Source: Dipteronia dyeriana
Lineage: Eukaryota > Streptophyta > Magnoliopsida > Sapindales > Sapindaceae
DNA: 64,000 nucleotides
Reading direction: 5' to 3'
NCBI GenBank assembly: GCA_032871835.1
Contig: CM065297.1
Coordinates: 45,264,203-45,328,202, forward strand
Shown here: in pieces, positions 23,947 to 40,162 of the stretch
How the letters are laid out: each line of letters starts with the position of its first letter
Position numbering within the stretch: position 1 is the stretch's first letter
Made by a program: the position numbers and the translations under genes
The notes under the pieces: generated by a model
Seen by the model: the letters and a program-made list of their open reading frames with translations, nothing else
Database searches by the model: none
What the model was told of the DNA's origin: nothing

Positions 23947-24721
23947 TTGAATGATATTGAATTCAACTTGAGTTTAGGAAACAGAGAATTGGTGTCTACT
24001 AGTGCAGTTGGAGATATTAGAATTAATTTAGATTCTTCTAGGCATTTAGATTTAATAAACTTTAATTATCTACCACAATTCAAGAGGAATTTAATTTTGG
24101 TTTCTTGTCTAAATAAATTTGGATATTTGGTTACTTTTAATAAAGGTTTAATTAGTAGTAAGAATATCAAATTTGTTTGCAAAGGTACATTGGAAAATGG
24201 CTTATTCTATATGCATAGAAATATCTCTCACTTATTAGACACGGAATCGACACAAACTAATCATAAAAGAGTACAATTATCAAAATATGAAACCTACCTA
24301 TGACATTTGCGCCTAGGTCATATTAACCTTAATAGGATCAAAAGATTGGTTAGTGATGGACCTTTAACTGACTTAAAGGTTAATGATCTACCAAGTCGTG
24401 AATCTTGTTTGGAAGGCAAGATGACCAAAACGTCGCTCACAACCAAAGGCATAAGAGCCACTGAATGTTTAGGATTGATACACACTGATGTGTGTGGTCT
24501 TATGAGCATTAAAGCTAAAGGTGAATATGAGTACTTCATCACTTTCACGGATGATTACTCAAGATTTGGTTATGTGTATCTCATGAGACATAAGTCAGAT
24601 GCTTCTGACATGTTCAAAGAATTTAAAGTTGAAGTAGAAAATCAGCTTGAGAAATGCCTAAAAATCTTGAGGTCTGATCGTGTAGGAGAATATCTATCTC
24701 GTGAGTTTAATGAAATTGTAA
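23947..24721 (+). pseudogene. Pre-integrase and partial integrase of the second family A unit
   Basis: 23947-24303 and 24307-24735 are open. The first holds NELVSTSAVGDI-like sequence and the post-protease segment ending YETYL, then a TGA (24301) replacing the Trp codon of the WH motif. The second holds LGHINLNRIKRLVSDGP, CLEGKM, LIHTDV (first Asp) and LRSDR (second Asp). The frame runs into LTR-like sequence at about 24722, so the integrase Glu, RT and RNase H are deleted. Confidence 0.85.
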
Positions 24722-24872
24722 TGAAATTAGCTTAGTATATATATTTTTTATTTTTTTATTAAATTAAATGGAAATTAATTTATTTATATATTTATTAATT
24801 GTTTCATTAAAGTTAAAATCTTTTTCCTAGTAAAAGTAGGTCTCCTACTGCCATATTATTATTGTTAATTTG
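24722..24872 (+). repeat. Family A LTR scrap
   Basis: AAATTAGCTTAGTATATATATTTT through TAGTAAAAGTAGGTCTCCTACTGCC aligns with the middle of the family A LTR (compare 20700-20835). It is joined directly to integrase sequence, so about 2.3 kb of pol and the LTR start are missing. Confidence 0.75.
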
Positions 24873-27669: not shown

Positions 27670-28504
27670 TGTAGGAGAAAACATGATATGGAAGGGAACA
27701 TATCGATTGGTTTATTTTAAAAAAAATCTTCAAAGAATGGACCTTGACCCTTGATTAATTAACATATAAATAAAAGGTATCGTACTTTTTTCACGTGATG
27801 ATTGATGTTGCACCGAATTAAATCAACAAGATCTTTCAATCCAATCACGAAAGTGAATTACCGAGGAGTGTACGCTCCCTTTCTTTGAATTGTATACTTG
27901 AGGATGGAAAACAATCAAAACCTTTTTCTTTTGTTAGTCACAATAATCCTTCTAGAGAAAAACGTAGAACATTTGGTCACTTATGAATTCTCAATCTAAT
28001 GATTGAAACTTGCGTGAACCCGATTCGATGTTGTACACAATTTTTTTTGATGTAAAGGATACTAGTGCACTATCGAAAACGAATATGTTCCCTCTTTTCT
28101 CTATGCTTGGCCAAATTCTTCACACAATGAGTTGGATCAAATTTTTTATTAAGAAAAGCAAAGTAAAAAAAAAACTTCTCACACAAGAACTAGGGTTGCT
28201 AAATTCTTTGATAGGGATATATATAGGTGGTCAAATTCTCACACAAGGAGGATTTCTATTTCACCAAGACTTCTATCATTTTTCGAAATTCTACCCTATT
28301 CCAACTCATTAGTGTATTATCCAATAATAAATTATTGAATATAAATTAATTGTGACATTATCAAAAACTTCATAATTTGACCAACTGTCAAGTAGAGTTT
28401 TGATAGATATCAAAGATGTCCTAATTTGATGAGATGAATAAATTCTTTTTGTTTATCTACTTATCAAATAAAATCTTTAATCCTTTTCAAAGTACCAACA
28501 TTAG
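27670..28504 (-). repeat. L0: reversed family A LTR, first segment
   Basis: In plus orientation it starts TGTAGGAGAAAACATG, a decayed version of the family A LTR end, and continues through the region with AATTGTATACTTGAGGATGG. It is cut at 28504 by element D and resumes at 40163. The duplicated ATTAG at the two joints shows that D inserted here. Confidence 0.85.
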
Positions 28505-29953
28505 TGACACGTCCTAAAAAGTGTTCATACTCCCAAGTATAAGAGTGTCATAGTAATAAATTAACTGGTAAGACCAGGTCGAACCACAGAGAGGTTGTTC
28601 ACTAGTCCATGTAGAATTAATTATCTAAATTAATTACTAAGCTTGTTATAAAATGTAAATCATTAAAATTAAAACTGGGGCTAATAGATCCACTGTTGGT
28701 AATTCGATTATGATCCAATAATTAATATTTAGTCTAGATTATTGGGAGGGTATTCCATTCCACTGACCACTCTCTGATAGATGTGGGTAACAGTACCCAC
28801 TGTGCTAGACAACATCTGTCTGTCTATAGTGAGTCAACACTCCACAAAGATCAGAAGGGATAAATCACTCTTTGATAGATATGGGTATAAGTACTCAATG
28901 TGCTAGACAATATATGTCTGTCTATAGTGAGTCAAAAACTCAACAAATATAAGAGGGGAGAAACCACTCCCTGATAAATATGGGTAAAAGTACTCACTAT
29001 GTTAGACAATATCTGTCTGACTACAGTTAGTCAAAAACTCCATAAAGATCAGAGGGGAGAAAGCAAAACAATAATAAACTTGTCATAATTGGATCATATT
29101 TTCCATACCAACAGTATCACCTTTGGCCCAAGCTATATAAAATTAGCCAGACATAATTTAAATAGAAAATTGCTATTTTATTTAAACTAAGAATTTGAGA
29201 ACAAAAGAGAGAGAATTTCACAAATCTAATATCAGATTTGGATTCAGAATGTGTAAATTAGGGGGGAGAGGTCCCCTATCTATATAAAATACGGATGAAA
29301 ATTGACTATCAGATGAATTTAGAATGGAGCGTCCAAATTGTGCCACGTCATCAGTGAACAGTGACAGTGAACAGTAAATGCATCCGTGAAAGTGAATAGT
29401 GAATAGTGCACCGGCTTCTAGAATATTATTCTCTACAGCATGTGTACGGTGCACTCATAATTAGGCCAATAGAAATGTTCCACATCATCGATCAATAATC
29501 TTCTAGAAAGTCCACTATAAACAGTGCACCGACTTCTAGAATGTGATTCTCTGCAGCCGCGTGTACGGTGCACTCACAGTTTTGGCCAATAGAAAGGTGC
29601 CACATCCTCAGGAACAGTGAAAGTCAACTATGAACAATGAAAGTCAACAGTGAACAGTGAACGCCAACTGTGAAAAGTGAATAGTCAAAATTACAAAAAT
29701 GCCTTTCGTGGCCTTCCTAAGGTTTTTGACATTCTAAACTTGAAAACGATGTTTTTTTTGCTATTTGACTTCTCCATAATTCTAAATTAATCGAATTACC
29801 TCTGAAATACAAGGAAAAATACACGGATTACTACACAACACATTTATTTAAGCGAGCGAACGAAATTATATCTAAATTGAGGAATTAGTCATATTGGAAG
29901 TGTAAAATGATGATATTATCCCTTAGTAAACATACACTTTTCAGTGTTAATCA
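28505..29953 (-). repeat. Element D 3' LTR (left copy)
   Basis: 1449 bp, plus-orientation ends TGACACGTCC and TTAATCA. It pairs with 38746-40157. It contains three tandem units (28762-29060), AACAGTGAA stutters (29357-29690) and a pair of units sharing TGTACGGTGCACTCA (near 29443 and 29562). The minus-strand TATA region lies near 29270-29285. Confidence 0.92.
28762..29060. repeat. Three tandem units of about 105 bp in the D LTR
   Basis: Units start near 28762, 28868 and 28972 and share CACTC.CTGATAGATATGGGTA, AGTAC.CACTGTGCTAGACAA and TCTGTCTG.CTATAGTGAGTCA. Three matching units sit in the other LTR at about 39003-39303, so the triplication predates insertion. Within a unit GACAGATATTGTC-like sequences form short inverted repeats. 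Confidence 0.85.
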
Positions 29954-31133: not shown

Positions 31134-31238
31134 TCACAAACTGAGATTCAGATCAATTCTGTGTTTCTTGTTCTCTTCATCAATGGACCAATCAATTTTG
31201 GAGGTTGAAGGATCTGGCTCATAATTAAAAGCTTGTAA

Positions 31239-31787
31239 CTAGTCAATCAGCTCATGAGGACTTAAAGCAGCGATAAAGATTTTTCGGATTGAAGGTGGAA
31301 TGTAATAATTTTTCAAAGCATGATCAAGAAATGAAAGCAAACCATCATAAAATTTATTAACATTCAACAAACCGACGGGTTTCTCATGGATGTGTAGTTG
31401 CGCCCAAGATGCCATTGTAAAAATTTCTTCTATGGTTCCAAAACCACTTGGCAAAGCTATAAACGCATCAGCATAATGTAACATAGCATTCAAATTTTCA
31501 GGCATACCTGAAACAGCTAGCTCTTCACCGTTTGTCTTTCCGGTGATGTCTGTTGTGGCCATAGGTTTTAGGACAATACCCAGAACTTGACTACCTCCGT
31601 CTCGTGCAGCTCGTGAAACACACCCCATTAATCCCAAGTTACCTCCTCCATACACTTGGTGTATTTTTCGCTCAGCCAAAACCTTACCAAGATGAGTTGC
31701 AGCATCAACAAGCTCTTTGTATTTATCATAATTGGTGCCACCAAACACACAAATGTTTGTGAATCGTTTAGTTGAAGGTGATGCCAT
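31239..31787 (-). CDS. LOG-like cytokinin riboside 5'-monophosphate phosphoribohydrolase family, captured copy
   Basis: ATG at 31787; 182 residues to a TAG at 31239-31241. The same frame then stays open for 39 more codons (LQAFNYEPDPSTSKIDWS segment onwards) to TGA at 31134, so the original protein was about 222 residues, the usual LOG length. Visible family features: ICVFGG near residue 12, VYGGGNLGLMG near 45, SGMPEN near 93, ADAFIALPSGFGTIEE near 106-121 and KPVGLLNV near 135. LOG enzymes release active cytokinin bases from riboside monophosphates in the cytosol. Here the PGGxGT signature has Ser for the second residue and the usual Arg-Lys pair after SGM is Asn-Leu, so activity is doubtful. 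No introns, unlike host LOG genes, which suggests an mRNA-derived copy. It lies on the gag-pol strand inside element D. Confidence 0.85.
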   Translation of the reverse strand: MASPSTKRFTNICVFGGTNYDKYKELVDAATHLGKVLAERKIHQVYGGGNLGLMGCVSRAARDGGSQVLGIVLKPMATTDITGKTNGEELAVSGMPENLNAMLHYADAFIALPSGFGTIEEIFTMASWAQLHIHEKPVGLLNVNKFYDGLLSFLDHALKNYYIPPSIRKIFIAALSPHELID

Positions 31788-32092: not shown

Positions 32093-32722
32093 CTATGGGT
32101 CTGGGATATGCTTCCCATCCATTTTTCTTATAAATTGGCAAACAGGGTCTTTTAAAGTCAGATTCCCAAGACTATATTGTGCATGTTCTTTTTGAAATTG
32201 TGGCCATAATCGGTCAATTGCCATTTGCACATATCCACTCGGATGTGCATCAAGAGTCGTTAGGATATTATCCAATGACTCACTACGCAAACCATGCCTA
32301 ATAAATAAAAATTTATCTTCCCGATTATTAGACACCATTCCTAAAGAATGACAATGTGTGTTGCAAGTTGTACTTGCATATTTGTGACAAGTAACCCCTA
32401 ACTTCTTAGCTCTTCGTTTTTTTGCAAGGTTACTTCTTCCAAAACCAGGCACATAAGATATAAATGAATCAGCAGACTCACCTGCTAGACGTACCTTAGC
32501 TTCGATCAACCAACGAATTTCAACAGGAATTTTGTTTATCATCAGTAAGCGTAATCTATCTGAACGTGCTTTGTAAATCTTTTTCAGAGCATTTTAGGGC
32601 AACGATGGAAAATGTTTTCGCAGGTTTGTGAAAATTTCATCCACGCCTTGTTTTTGGGATACGTTATTTGGAAAACTGAATTAAACCGACTTGAATTGTC
32701 ATGGAGTACCGTTGTCTGCCAT
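32093..32722 (-). pseudogene. Unrecognised frame of element D (Cys/His-containing)
   Basis: The open stretch 32093-32542 codes 149 residues, and the same phase extends upstream to an ATG at 32722 across three stops, giving about 209 codons. Features: a basic amphipathic start (NALKKIYKARSDRLRLL), IPVEIRWLIEAKVRLAGESA, a Lys/Arg-rich stretch LAKKRRAKKLG, a Cys/His group TCHKYASTTCNTHCHSLG that might bind a metal, and a C-terminal LTLKDPVCQFIRKMDGK. I do not recognise the family. It sits between integrase and the LOG-like frame on the same strand. It could be a second captured gene or an element-specific accessory protein. No signal peptide or membrane segment is evident. Confidence 0.5.
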
Positions 32723-32884: not shown

Positions 32885-34048
32885 TCAAAAAGGACGGTAG
32901 AGTCTTTTTAAAAATCTGTATTTTCTAAGAAATGGTTTCACACGTTGTCCATTTACTTTAAACACATTACCATTCCTAGGATTCTTAATATAAAGGGCAC
33001 CATATATATACACGTGTTTCACAACAAATGGACCAATCCATTTTGATTTCAATTTGCCAGGAAATAAATGAAGTCGAGAATTATAAAGCAAAACCTTTTG
33101 ACCAACTTCAAATGATCTTCTTAAAATTCGTCTGTCATGAAAGGTTTTAGATTTGTCTTTAGGGATTTTTTCTTTTTTATATTCATCATTTCTTAATTCT
33201 TCAAGTTCATTTATTTGCAACATGCGCAATTCACTAGCATCATTTAGGTTAGAATTGAAAGCTTTAATGGCCCAATATGCTTTTTCTCAAGTTCAACAGG
33301 TAAGTGGCAAGGTTTTCCATAAAATAAACGATGAGGAGACATACCCAAAGATCTTTTGAATGCAGTGTGGTAAGCCCAAAGTGCATCATTTAGTCTAAGA
33401 GACCAATCTTTTCGATCAGGTTAACCGTTTTTTGTAAGATATGTTTTATCTCCCTATTTGCTTACTCAACCTGACCACTTGTTTGAGGGTGGTATGGTGT
33501 GGCAATTTTTTGTGTGACTCCATATTTCTTCATTAAAGACTCAAAAGGTTTGTTACAAAAGTGTTTACCTCCATCACTGATAATCGAGGGATTCCAAATC
33601 GAGTCAAAAGATTTTCCTTTAAAAACTTAATCACTGTTTTGTGATCATTATTTCGATAAGGAATTGCCTCAACCTATTTTGACACATAATCAACGGCAAC
33701 CAAAATGCACACAAATTCAAATGACGGCGAAAATGGACCCATAAAATCAATTCCCCCCAACAATCAATTATTTCAATGACAAGAATTGGTTTAAAGGCAT
33801 CATGTTTCGCTTGGAAATGGATCCTAACGTTTGACAATTTTCACAGGTTTTATAGAATGGTTGTGCGTCTTTAAACAAGGTGGGCCAATAAAATCCACAC
33901 TGTAAGATTTTTACAGCCATTTTCTTTGACGAAAATGACCACCATATCCTTCAGAATGACAAAATTCATTGACACGACTTACCTCATTACCTGAAATACA
34001 CCGTCGAACAATTTGATCAGGACAATACTTGAATAAGAACGGGTCATC
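32885..34048 (-). pseudogene. Element D integrase remnant
   Basis: The C-terminal domain is open at 32885-33229 (114 residues) with [20 protein letters not shown] and [12 protein letters not shown], the Gypsy integrase GPF/Y-type module. The core lies at about 33230-34048 with many stops: an ISDGGKHFCNKPF segment (second catalytic Asp region) near 33580 and HPQTSGQVE (Glu region) near 33470. A zinc-finger-like NEFCHSEGYGGH segment lies near 33960. No chromodomain is visible, in keeping with Athila. Confidence 0.82.
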
Positions 34049-34489
34049 CTAGTAAAAACGTTTTATCTCTGTCAAAAATTTATTTTTATCCTTTGCATTC
34101 CAATCGAGTGGCATCATTCCTGTTGCACGATAATTAACAATGTCAGCATACCAAGGCAAATTTGTGATAGAGAATAAAAGATCATCAAGAAAAGAATCAT
34201 TGATGGGTGCTTTATCAAATGATGACTCAACGGTGAGTCGTGATAAATGGTCTGCAACAAAATTTTCAACACCCTTTTTTTCCTTAATTGTGAGATTGAA
34301 TTCTTGTAGTAACAAAATCCAGCGAATCAATCTTGGCTTTGCATCATGTTTAGACATTAAATATTTCAAAGCAGCGTGATCAATAAAAACAATGGTTGAA
34401 GAGCCAATCAAGTATGACCAAAATTTATCCAATGCAAATATCACATCAAGTAATTCTTTCTCAGTGGTGGTGTAATTAATTTGTAACAA
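34049..34489 (-). pseudogene. Element D RNase H remnant
   Basis: 146 residues with [22 protein letters not shown] at the start, [11 protein letters not shown] in the middle and [17 protein letters not shown] followed by [11 protein letters not shown], which are the standard Gypsy RNase H landmarks. The N-terminal part (34490-34900) is present only across several phases. It would degrade the RNA strand during reverse transcription. Confidence 0.85.
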
Positions 34490-35607
34490 TTCAAAGTTCT
34501 ACTAGCGTAATAAATCACAAAAGGCTTACCTTCTCTTCTCTGTCCTAAGACAGCTCCAACAACAAAATCACTCGCATCACACATCAATTCAAAAGGCAAT
34601 GGTCAATCGGGGGATTGCATGACAGGAGCAGACGTTAAAAGGTCAACTATCTTTTTAAAAGACTCTCCACACTCTTGTGTACATTCAAATTTTGTATCTT
34701 TTAATAAGAGGTTACAAAGTGGTTTAGATATGACACTGAAATCTTAAATAAACCTCATATAAAATCCTACATGCTCTAACAATTACCGCACATCTTTGAC
34801 TGTTTATGGTGGTGGTAACTTCGAAATGACTTTAATTTTTGCCTTATCAGCCTCGATTCCTTTAGATGACACAACATGACCCAAAACAATTCCAGATGTG
34901 GTCATATAATGACATTTTTCCTAGTTAAGCACAAGTCCTTTATCTATGCAATGTTTCAAGACTCTTTCCAACTTATTTAGACATTCATCAAAAGAATCCC
35001 TAAACACAGTTAAATCATCCATAAAGACCTCTAAACAGTGTTCAATCATGTCACTAAAAAAGCTTAGCATGCATCGTTGAAATGTGGCTGAAGCATTACA
35101 CAAACCAAATGGCATTCTTCTAAATGCAAAGGTTCCAAATAGGCATGTGAGTGTGGTCTTTTCTTGGTCTTCTAATGCAATGGGAATTTGATAGTATCCA
35201 GAGTACCCATCAAGAAAGTAGTATTTGGGATGTCCTGCTACTCTTTCTAAAATATGGTCAAGTAATGGAAGCGGAAAATGATCTTTTCTAGTGGCATCAT
35301 ATAATTTTCTATAATCAATGCACATGCGCCAACTAGATGGAACACGAGTTGGAATTAACTACCCCATTTCATTTTTAACAACAGAGATTCCAGATTTTTT
35401 TGGCATAACTTGTGTAGGACTCACCCATTTACTATCAGAGATAGGGTAGATAATTCCCACGTCAAGTAATTTAAGGACTTCGGTCTTGACAACTTCTTTC
35501 ATGTGTGGGTTAAGTCTTCTTTGGGGTTGTCGATATGTTTTAGCATTTTTCTCCAAATTTATTGGATGTGAACAAATCAATGGGTTAATACCTTTCAAAT
35601 CTTTCAA
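34490..35607 (-). pseudogene. Element D reverse transcriptase remnant
   Basis: 35359-35607 holds the RT start (RRLNPHMKEVVKTEVLKLLD, IYPISDSKWVSPTQVMPKK). 34921-35325 holds MCIDYRKL, HFPLPLLDHILERVAGH, FLDGYSGYYQIPIA, FGTFAFRRMPFGLCNASATF and the catalytic FMDD box in LEVFMDDLTVF. These are Athila-type signatures. Stops or frameshifts separate the pieces near 35340 and downstream of 34921. Confidence 0.88.
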
Positions 35608-36571: not shown

Positions 36572-38155
36572 TTATGAATTTTTAAGAGCCTGAGGATATG
36601 GAAGTGTAGGTGGGAATTCAATTATTTCTTCGTCAATAGTGGTTTCATCAACTCCTTCCTTACCCTTGGAAAATGACTCATCATCATTTTTACTAGATTC
36701 AAGAATAGGTTTTTTAATGACCTTACCATTACGAAGAGTGATAATTGATTTGACTTGATCTGGGCATTGATTATTATCATAGGAACTTGACTGACTCTTG
36801 GTATTTGGTTGTGGTTGAGATAGAAAATTACCTTTTTTATGTGTGGTGAGTGTAGAAGCAATCTTTACCAAAGTATCTTTAACATCTATCAAGGTTTGTG
36901 CAGTTTGGCAGTTAATGGCTTTTTGTTTATCAATGAATGAGTGCAAAGTGTCTTCAAGGTTTTTCCTAGATGGTGGGACATAAGGCGTATAACCTTGATG
37001 GTTTTGGAAATTTTGGTGTGTTTGTGGATTTGATGGACCTGGTGGTTGTGAAGACTGGGCTTGATTGTTGTTCCTCCAACTAAAGTTTGGATGATTTCCC
37101 CAACTAGGATTGTAGGTTTGTGAGTATGGGTTGGAATTTGGCTTATTGAAAGTGTAAAAAACATTGGCTTGTTCATGAAGACAATCTTTTATGGTTGGTA
37201 AAGTTAGGCAACTATGAGTGATATGATCATCAGAATCACATACATGGCATACAATTTCTTGCACAGATTTTACATGTTCACTCTTTTTAGTTTCTAAAAC
37301 TTCAACTTTCCTAGCTAGGGATGCGAATCTAGCTTGAAGGTCATGATCTTCCTTAATATTGTAAATGCCTCCACTAGATGGAGATGGTTGTGGTTTGTTT
37401 ATGGACTCATAGGAACCAATGGTGTCCCAATTTTGAGCATTTTCAGCGATGTGGTCAAGATAGTCAAGTGCTTCTTCGGGATTTTTGTCACTGAACTCCC
37501 CATTACACACAATTTCAATGACTTGTCTACTTTGAGGTGTGAGTCCCTCATAGAAATGTGACACTATCCTCCATGTTTCAAAATCGTGATGTGGACATAC
37601 ATTTAACAACTCTTTAAAACTATCCCAACATTGTTAAAGTGTTTCCCCAGGTTTTTGGGTAAATGAAGTGATTTGCCTCTTAAGAGAGTTTGTTCTATGA
37701 GGTGGGAAAAAATTCTTTAAGAACTGATATTGCATATCATTCCAAGTTTGAATTGACTCTGACCTAAGGTTTTGTAACCAAGTTTTAGCATTATCATTTA
37801 AGGAAAAAGGGAAAAACTTAAGCCTGATTATATCCATGCTAACATTTTGGTCAGTACACGTGTTATTTGCAAATATTGGTTTTCAGATTCGAGACAGTGA
37901 AAATTGGGTAAAAGTTGAATGATTCACGGTTTAAAATTAAAGTGTGCAGCATTTGGTGGGAAAGCTATGCATGAAGGTACTCATGTACGTGTGGGGTTCA
38001 TGTAGTCTCTAAGAGTTCTAAGTGGATTTGGGTTAATGTGTTGGTCCTGGTCAACATAAGGCGGATTGTTGTTGTGTTGAGACACTTTATCCAGGTTGTC
38101 TAAAAGGTTCTCGACTTGGTTTCTTGCTAGATGTCTAAGTGGGTTTTCAGCCATG
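36572..38155 (-). pseudogene. Element D gag remnant
   Basis: The original start is probably the ATG at 38155 (MAENPLRHLARNQVENLLDN). DYMNPTRT and IQLLPNFH segments follow, then 37634-37837 with RLKFFPFSLNDNAKTWLQNL (capsid domain) and 36572-37609 (345 residues) with YEGLTPQSRQVIEIVCNGEF, a CHVCDSDDHITHSC CCHC knuckle near residue 120 and a Pro/Asn/Gln-rich region. The end ITLRNGKVIKKP leads to the protease. Stops occur near 37610 and between 37838 and 38100. Order and motifs are those of Athila gag. Confidence 0.85.
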
Positions 38156-38721: not shown

Positions 38722-38739
38722 TCCCTGGCAGCGGCGCCA
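38722..38739 (-). promoter_or_regulatory. Primer binding site of element D (Asp tRNA type)
   Basis: The plus strand reads TCCCTGGCAGCGGCGCCA, which equals the 3' end of plant Asp tRNA (GUC anticodon), from memory, with two mismatches. It lies six bases inside the 5' LTR edge, as expected for Athila elements. Confidence 0.85.
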
Positions 38740-38745
38740 AAAACT

Positions 38746-40157
38746 TTACACGTCCTAAAGAAGTGTTCCTACTCCCAAGTATAAGAGTGTCATAGTAATA
38801 AATTAACCGGTAAGACCGGGTCTAACCACGTGGAGGTTGTTCACTAGTTCTTGTAGAATTAATTATCTAAATTAATTACTAAGCTTGTTATAAAATGTAA
38901 ATCAATTAAAATTAAAACTAGGGCTAAGGGATCCCTTGTTGGTAATTCGATTATGATCCAATTATTAATATTTAGTCCAAATTAATGGGAGGGTATTCCA
39001 CTCCACTGACCACTCTCTGATAAATATGGGTAAAAGTACCCACTGTGCTAGACAACATCTGTTTGTCTACAGTGAGTCAAAACTCCACAATGATTAGAAG
39101 GGATAAACCACTCTCCGATAGATATGGGTAAAAGTACTCATTGTGCTAGACAATATCTGTCTATCTACAATGAGTAAAAAACTCCACAAAGATCAGAGGG
39201 GAGAAACCACTATCTGATAAATATGGGTAAAAGTACTCACTGTGCTAGACAATATCTGTCTGACTATAGTGAGTTAAAAACTCCACAAAGATCAGAGTGG
39301 AGAAAGCAAGAAAATAATAAAATTGCCATAATTGGATCATATTTTCCATACCAACAGTATCACCTTTAGCCCAAACTATATAAAATTAGTCAGACATAAT
39401 TTAACTAGAAAATAACTATTTTATTTAACTGAGAATTTAAGAACAAAAGAGGGAGAATTTCACAATTCTAATATCAGATTTGGATTTAGAATGTGTAAAT
39501 TAAGGGGGAGAGGTCCCCTATTTATAAAAAATACAGATGAAAATTAACCATCGGATGAATTTAGAATGGAGCGTCCAGATTACGCCACGTCATTAGTGAA
39601 CAGTGAACAATGAACAATAAACACATCCGTGAAAATGAATAGTGAACAGTGCACCTGCTTCTAGAATATTATTCTCTGCAGCACGTGTACGGTGCAATCA
39701 AAATTTAGGCCAATAGAATTGTGTCACATCATCGGTCAATAGTCTTCTAGAAAGTCAACTACGAACAGTGCACCGACTTCTAGAATTTGATTCTCTGCAG
39801 CCGCGTGTACGGTGCACTCGCTGTTTGGGCTAATAGGAATGTGCCACATCATCAGGAACAATGAAAGTCAACTGTAAACAGTGAATAGTTAAAATTACAA
39901 AAATACCTTTTGTGGCCTTCCTAAGGTTTTTGACGTTCAAAACTTGAAAACGATGTTTGTTTTGCTATCTAACTTCTCTATAATTCTGAATTGATCGAAT
40001 TACCTCTGAAATACAGGGAAAAATACACTGATTACTACACAACACATTTATTTAAGTGAGCAAATGAAATTATGTCTAAATTGGGAAATTAATCATATTG
40101 GAAGTGTAAAATGATGATATTATCCCTTAGTAAACATACAATTTTCAGTGTTAATCA
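38746..40157 (-). repeat. Element D 5' LTR (right copy)
   Basis: 1412 bp. In plus orientation it starts TTACACGTCC (the expected TG is TT) and ends TTAATCA next to ATTAG. It is slightly shorter than the left LTR, mainly in the AACAGTGAA stutter region near 39850. Confidence 0.92.
39519..39526 (-). promoter_or_regulatory. Likely TATA box of the element D LTR
   Basis: On the minus strand TATAAATAGGGGACC. The left LTR has TATATAGATAGGGGAC at the matching place (about 29268-29283). Transcription of gag-pol and of the captured frames would start a little downstream, toward lower coordinates. Confidence 0.55.
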
Positions 40158-40162
40158 ATTAG

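Follow-up and report, generated by a model that had tools for sequence, protein, structure and literature searches.

Athila-like elements with a LOG-like extra open reading frame (ORF) are said to have been described by Steinbauerova in 2011. According to the accessible part of PMC9289625, a YgdH/LOG domain occurs in Gypsy consensus sequences of Citrus and Populus, a result presented there as 'in line with' Steinbauerova 2011, and the presence of LOG in Gypsy elements is, as a general idea, already known. That paper also deals with orchid Gypsy elements carrying an m6A demethylase domain, in which a Gypsy element has likewise acquired a host-type enzyme, whereas the enzyme and the plants are others here, and a function that is claimed in the title of that paper is in our case predicted from sequence. 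The locus described below shares with the Citrus and Populus elements, as presented in the part of PMC9289625 consulted, a LOG-family domain encoded in an additional ORF of a Ty3/Gypsy element, and it adds further plants, a tree with a single clade, changes in the pocket, an LxLxL tail, a link with an ORF similar to viral nucleic-acid-binding proteins (NABPs) and an amplified derivative devoid of reverse transcriptase (RT). In the main text of a 2024 analysis of LOG evolution in plants (PMC11593424), words starting with 'transpos' or 'retrotranspos' are absent. A literature search over titles and the beginnings of abstracts, with subscription papers mostly outside it, found the partner ORF and the LxLxL tail named in no source, yielded nothing relevant for the carlavirus/NABP Pfam families in combination with retrotransposons, and met no single LOG clade across eight plant genera, pocket loss, LxLxL tail or viral-NABP-like partner ORF.

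The stretch of DNA analysed (the window) comprises 64,000 nucleotides of the Dipteronia dyeriana genome (contig CM065297.1, positions 45,264,203 to 45,328,202). Its LOG-like frame sits between the integrase and the 3′ LTR of a Ty3/Gypsy element, on the same strand as gag-pol and within ATTAG duplications, an arrangement put forward in the original prediction and borne out by the repeats and the order of the Pfam domains. The features, in window positions, are the following.

28500..28504, no strand: target-site duplication ATTAG, left (read from the sequence)
28505..29953, minus: 3′ LTR, direct repeat with 38746-40157
31134..31787, minus: LOG-like frame, 217 codons (PF03641, E=3.7e-32)
31137..31157, minus: C-terminal LxLxL (EAR-type) tail IDLNLSL, in the window translation beyond the in-frame stop
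31425..31451, minus: PSGFGTIEE in the translation, counterpart of the LOG motif PGGxGTxxE (motif as given in the available part of PMC4979012)
31494..31496, minus: catalytic Arg position (CgLOG Arg99), Asn in the window copy
32093..32593, minus: aORF1, second extra ORF, located upstream of LOG, whose relatives match viral nucleic-acid-binding zinc-finger families; window copy decayed
32885..33286, minus: integrase C-terminal part, 61% identical to the corresponding region of L048 and, along 91 residues, 70% identical to the Rhamnella model P0221
33244..33950, minus: integrase zinc-binding and core pieces in several frames (PF17921, E=2e-5; PF00665, E=5.7e-5)
34049..34602, minus: RNase H pieces (PF17917)
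34921..35358, minus: reverse transcriptase piece (PF00078, E=1.1e-17)
36572..37882, minus: gag, in two frames (PF03732, E=1.1e-14)
38727..38739, minus: primer-binding-site-like TGGCGCCGCTGCC adjoining the 5′ LTR (read from the sequence)
38746..40157, minus: 5′ LTR, direct repeat with 28505-29953
40158..40162, no strand: target-site duplication ATTAG, right (read from the sequence)

Paired LTRs, a target duplication and the order gag, RT, RNase H and integrase on one strand identify a Ty3/Gypsy element, of which this copy is decayed, with several broken frames. The integrase fragments score under the Pfam cut-offs (PF17921, 25.0 versus 25.5 bits; PF00665, 23.8 versus 32.6 bits), and an intact, homologous integrase frame is present in L048, a record considered below. 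The TGGCGCCGCTGCC site presumably resembles Athila-type primer sites, and we take the name Athila to be consistent with the primer site, the 3′ extra ORFs and the structure of the element. With substitution rates of 1.3e-8 and 6.5e-9, the divergence of the two LTRs (K2P 0.096) corresponds to an insertion age of about 4 to 7 million years. A repeat of about 98 bp period also occurs three times in each LTR (28738-29065 and 38981-39308). Elsewhere in the window, plus-strand frames at 23947-24735 resemble, as judged by eye, pieces of another retroelement polyprotein, probably of Ty1/copia type.

The LOG frame matches PF03641 with 111.7 bits against a cut-off of 27 in the Pfam search, as well as PF18306 (E=4.3e-12) and AtLOG3 (PDB 2a33, E=1.5e-49), all of which is far beyond chance. 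An unsplit LOG frame with its landmarks (VYGGGNLGLMG, ADAFIALPSGFGTIEE and KPVGLLNV) had been correctly predicted, and the translation has, in addition, an in-frame TAG that the original prediction omitted (31241-31239, minus strand, after codon 182 of 217). In CgLOG, Arg99 and Glu122 are proposed as catalytic in the available part of PMC4979012, with Met96, His97, Lys100, Glu125 and Trp129 forming the prenyl pocket. The window copy retains Glu122, carries Asn in place of Arg99 and has Leu and Thr at the positions of Lys100 and Glu125; the strict motif PGGxGTxxE is absent from it, the sequence reading PSGFGTIEE. With an in-frame stop and the catalytic Arg replaced, the window's own LOG copy is dead. 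Among the 35 other distinct Dipteronia copies, Arg99 is present in 34 and Glu122 in all.

A search of the same genome (914 Mb) with the window LOG gave 861 candidate places, the best 150 of which, window included, were scored. All 150 match the LOG frame, with 81-100% identity, and the frame is, as predicted, an integral part of a Gypsy-type family spread through the genome. The matched stretch is free of stops in 63 of the 150 scored copies and bears them in 87 (hand count), and in-frame stops occur in 14 of the 35 distinct copies. The window, 35 distinct other copies and repeated entries make up 46 loci, all of which carry aORF1, whole or in part. From the 150 rows closest to the window LOG, twenty copies were extracted together with some 5 kb of flank at either end, and their fractions describe this sample rather than the genome: aORF1 is kept in all 20 (19 nearly whole, one 28%), the integrase core in 18 and LTR sequence in 18 (one partial), so that in this genome the frame proves, on the flank comparison proposed beforehand, neither single nor devoid of element flanks. 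An identical deletion covering RT and most of RNase H (window 35765-34216) is common to 14 of these 20 copies (L010-L012, L014-L018, L021, L022, L024 and L026-L028), RT is kept in four, and the remaining two are cut short. The sharing of one RT-removing deletion by 14 of the 20 indicates that an RT-less, non-autonomous derivative keeping LOG was amplified.

In a tree of 67 LOG proteins, the element-type LOGs form one clade of 50 rows (support 100/100, branch 0.88), the existence of which the original prediction had proposed to check. It takes in Dipteronia, Xanthoceras, Acer, Citrus, Populus, Parasponia, Reevesia and Paulownia, together with unnamed environmental rows, and its nearest neighbour, weakly placed (85/79), is a host row of Carya. 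A single element clade beside host LOG7-type rows suggests one old capture. The host rows, classed as such by name and place in the tree, were collected by searching with an element-type LOG, and several are named LOG7; a LOG7 origin is provisional because the other LOG groups in the tree are AtLOG3 and AtLOG8 only. The Paulownia rows lie among rosid rows, which could be due to transfer between plants or to incomplete sampling. The Populus model P0011, annotated as 'probable LOGL10', falls inside the element clade; the suggestion that many atypical LOG-like annotations derive from such elements thus holds for at least one of them. Three Populus models of that name (P0011, P0081 and P0295) look element-type, P0011 being the one placed by the tree.

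Long LOG queries for host genes returned mostly element copies, and a short exon query was used instead, which gave 12 exon-sized places with at least 66% identity in the same genome. L047, the single host LOG gene sampled, is split at two points, inside LPGG and behind KP; the gaps measure about 1.4 kb and 0.09 kb and look as introns would. Element copies run through both points, so the predicted origin through mRNA fits. Host LOG7-type enzymes (cytokinin riboside 5′-monophosphate phosphoribohydrolases), the nearest host rows in the tree, have the same domain and most of the active-site residues, whereas the element LOG lacks introns at the two L047 points and, in the window's sub-clade, has lost Lys100 and Glu125 and ends in a C-terminal LxLxL.

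This sub-clade comprises 39 rows (support 98/88 in the 67-row tree) and retains Arg99 in 36 and Glu122 in 38, whereas Lys100 is found in a single row (P0111) and Glu125 in none. All four residues are kept in the other 11 element rows, Xanthoceras and Acer included, and in the 17 remaining rows of the tree. Ordinary cytokinin activation by the sub-clade is therefore doubtful on sequence grounds, Lys100 and Glu125 of the pocket being gone, and the term 'hormone-activating' used in the original prediction is unsupported, with the window copy broken and its sub-clade devoid of two pocket residues. Ordinary LOG activity was rejected as the default for the sub-clade on account of these lost residues. 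A wider set of 185 of the 193 LOG rows (160-270 aa) was sorted by Lys100 and Glu125, 134 of them lacking both by definition, and the 31 representatives drawn from it (less than 85% identity, mean identity 62%) were used for the tails and for positions other than these two. They keep Arg99 in 31 and Glu122 in 30, and, within PGGxGTxxE, Pro in 30, the three Gly in 30, 30 and 29, Thr in 31 and the last Glu in 30, in a protein collection that lists translated frames and so favours intact ones.

With regard to the C-terminus, LxLxL occurs within the last ten residues in 33 of 36 sub-clade rows, in one of seven other element rows and in none of 15 host rows (tree rows 205 aa or longer). Counts for the larger set, whose rows were assigned by residue and in part manually, are 106 of 114, 1 of 11 other element rows and 0 of 31 host rows, shuffled tails averaging 2 of 114, and the motif is present in 28 of the 33 readable tails among the 35 other distinct Dipteronia copies. 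Judged from these tails, LxLxL is a gain of the window's sub-clade. EAR-type motifs, of the form LxLxL or DLNxxP, bind TOPLESS, and the tail of the element LOG is predicted to do the same. LxLxL is one form of the EAR repressor motif, according to the available part of PMC6479872, and the accessible part of PMC7446885 describes pathogen effectors such as HaRxL21, which bind TOPLESS through an EAR motif. Such effectors and the element LOG alike show an EAR-type motif in the protein of a parasite, whereas here the motif lies on an enzyme of a genomic element and TOPLESS binding is a prediction.

Selection on LOG within the Dipteronia genome is weak or unproven. Singletons show an N/S of 3.12 (mutational expectation 2.39) versus 1.83 for variants present in at least three copies (p=0.085, 36 copies); the same test gives p=0.57 for aORF1 (34 copies) and p=0.20 for the integrase C-terminus (31), and is significant for gag (p=0.015, 14 copies). 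Pairwise dN/dS is about 0.75 among recent LOG copies, and the distant ones give 0.37, 0.49 and, for a third, decayed copy, 0.81 over 115 codons, a mixed outcome for the dN/dS comparison that had been proposed. The stronger argument for constraint is the conservation of the catalytic residues at a mean identity of 62%, taken from collections that favour intact frames.

The relatives of the partner ORF, aORF1, are mostly 182 aa long and show a KKRRAKR-type basic stretch followed by C-x2-C-x4-C-x3-C; in an alignment of 41 of the 120 relatives listed, the four Cys are conserved in 90% or more of the proteins. At E<=0.01, PF05515 (viral NABP) is found in 36 and PF01623 (carlavirus) in 34 of these 41. 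Six of nine relatives scanned singly pass a Pfam gathering score and three pass none, and the window aORF1 reaches 14.5 bits versus a cut-off of 20.9. The viral cysteine-rich NABPs of these two families share the basic stretch and the cysteine pattern with the relatives of aORF1, which differ in their 182 aa and in being carried by a retrotransposon. The AlphaFold model of aORF1 is poor (pLDDT 64, pTM 0.30), so that the link with viral proteins is one of sequence profiles, and neither a LOG nor the aORF1 alignment had a relative among the viral contigs scanned. We take the cysteine-rich proteins of allexiviruses to belong with PF05515. Silencing suppression has been reported for these proteins in the accessible part of PMC12389679. 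Against L048, the median dN/dS of aORF1 is 0.25 (from those 26 among the 46 loci with more than 140 codons matched, repeats included), which indicates that it was under purifying selection; the corresponding integrase value is 0.14 (32 loci, dS 1.8, near saturation).

Outside Dipteronia, direct evidence for the element context is partial and comes from Xanthoceras locus tags, the published Citrus and Populus consensuses and large clusters. In Xanthoceras, LOG (P0243) and aORF1 (P0121) bear the adjacent tags ACOSQ2_032186 and ACOSQ2_032187, on contigs of equal size. The Rhamnella model P0221 fuses an integrase C-terminus (70% identity to that of the window) with aORF1, and the large 90% clusters of LOG proteins have 79 members in Citrus, and 28 and 29 in Reevesia. 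Three LOG/aORF1 pairs have the same source and equal contig size (4511, 3394 and 8723), which is only suggestive, because a fourth equal size (1018) is too short for both genes and chance equality therefore occurs. Integrase followed by aORF1 was also found in L048 (DAIEQH010000041.1, 194-2347), a record filed as a Candidatus Nomurabacteria MAG, which reads as plant retrotransposon DNA inside a bacterial MAG record and is likely contamination. The 983 bp behind its aORF1 contain no LOG; the two ORFs are thus separable and, given L048, aORF1 may be older and wider than LOG.

We lean, with moderate confidence, towards the reading that the window LOG is a broken copy of an extra ORF in a multicopy Ty3/Gypsy family, acquired in a single event, by way of mRNA, from a LOG7-type host gene and used with the zinc-finger ORF to act on the host. 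Its observed base is made up of the position, the linkage of the ORFs, the unsplit frame, the single clade, the kept Arg and Glu, the lost pocket residues, the gained tail and the family of aORF1, from which we infer expression, enzyme activity, TOPLESS binding and silencing suppression as further steps. A single chance insertion or assembly error, with a host LOG retrocopy inside one element, is practically excluded: nothing was found in its favour, it is refuted by the 150 matching places and the element flanks of the 20 long-flank copies, and it is also at odds with the same neighbours in the copies examined and with one clade across several plant orders.

It is rather unlikely that LOG is a neutral passenger, that is, a host transcript recombined into the element and copied since without benefit. 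Such an origin would agree with the weak selection on LOG within the genome, with the many stop-bearing copies (14 of 35 distinct, 87 of 150 by hand count) and with the L048 element, whose aORF1 has no LOG close behind, but it would not be expected to keep Arg99 in 31 and Glu122 in 30 of 31 representatives at a mean identity of 62%, to maintain a new tail in 33 of 36 sub-clade rows, or to leave LOG in an amplified RT-less derivative (14 of 20 copies, though these loci were found by their LOG). An active cytokinin-making gene, in which an ordinary LOG enzyme would raise local cytokinin and cell division, seems improbable. The frame does belong to the LOG family by sequence, Arg99 and Glu122 persist in most relatives, and the 11 element rows outside the sub-clade, Xanthoceras and Acer included, keep Lys100 and Glu125; however, the sub-clade itself has Lys100 in 1 and Glu125 in 0 of 39 rows, both residues belonging to the prenyl/adenine pocket in the part of PMC4979012 consulted.

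Under the preferred reading of a captured LOG that acts on the host together with the zinc-finger ORF, the LOG protein would be made from the LTR transcript of the element, would retain the dimeric LOG fold and would cleave a nucleoside 5′-monophosphate by hydrolysis, but in the window's sub-clade the normal prenylated cytokinin precursors are probably not its substrates. By binding TOPLESS co-repressors, the tail would direct the LOG protein to host chromatin. The zinc-finger protein encoded by aORF1 would attach to nucleic acid and dampen RNA silencing, and the pair is likely to help the element to act on its host. The Xanthoceras and Acer forms, outside the sub-clade and with both pocket residues, would still make active cytokinin. 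The details reported above point to an accessory module more unusual than a plain cytokinin gene. A tentative extension, which we consider possible, is a two-gene module for host manipulation, in which a plant-virus-type zinc-finger protein would counter RNA silencing and a LOG acquired a single time in the ancestry of several eudicot orders would have been re-aimed, through loss of the cytokinin pocket and gain of a TOPLESS-recruiting tail, as a nuclear effector.

If the proposed roles hold, this retrotransposon family encodes effector-like proteins, namely a hormone enzyme with a changed pocket and a virus-type zinc-finger protein, which would tie together RNA-virus accessory genes, transposon biology and cytokinin signalling. 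Some gene models of the 'probable LOGL10' type would then be transposon genes, and the role of the extra ORFs located behind the integrase in such elements would have a testable answer.
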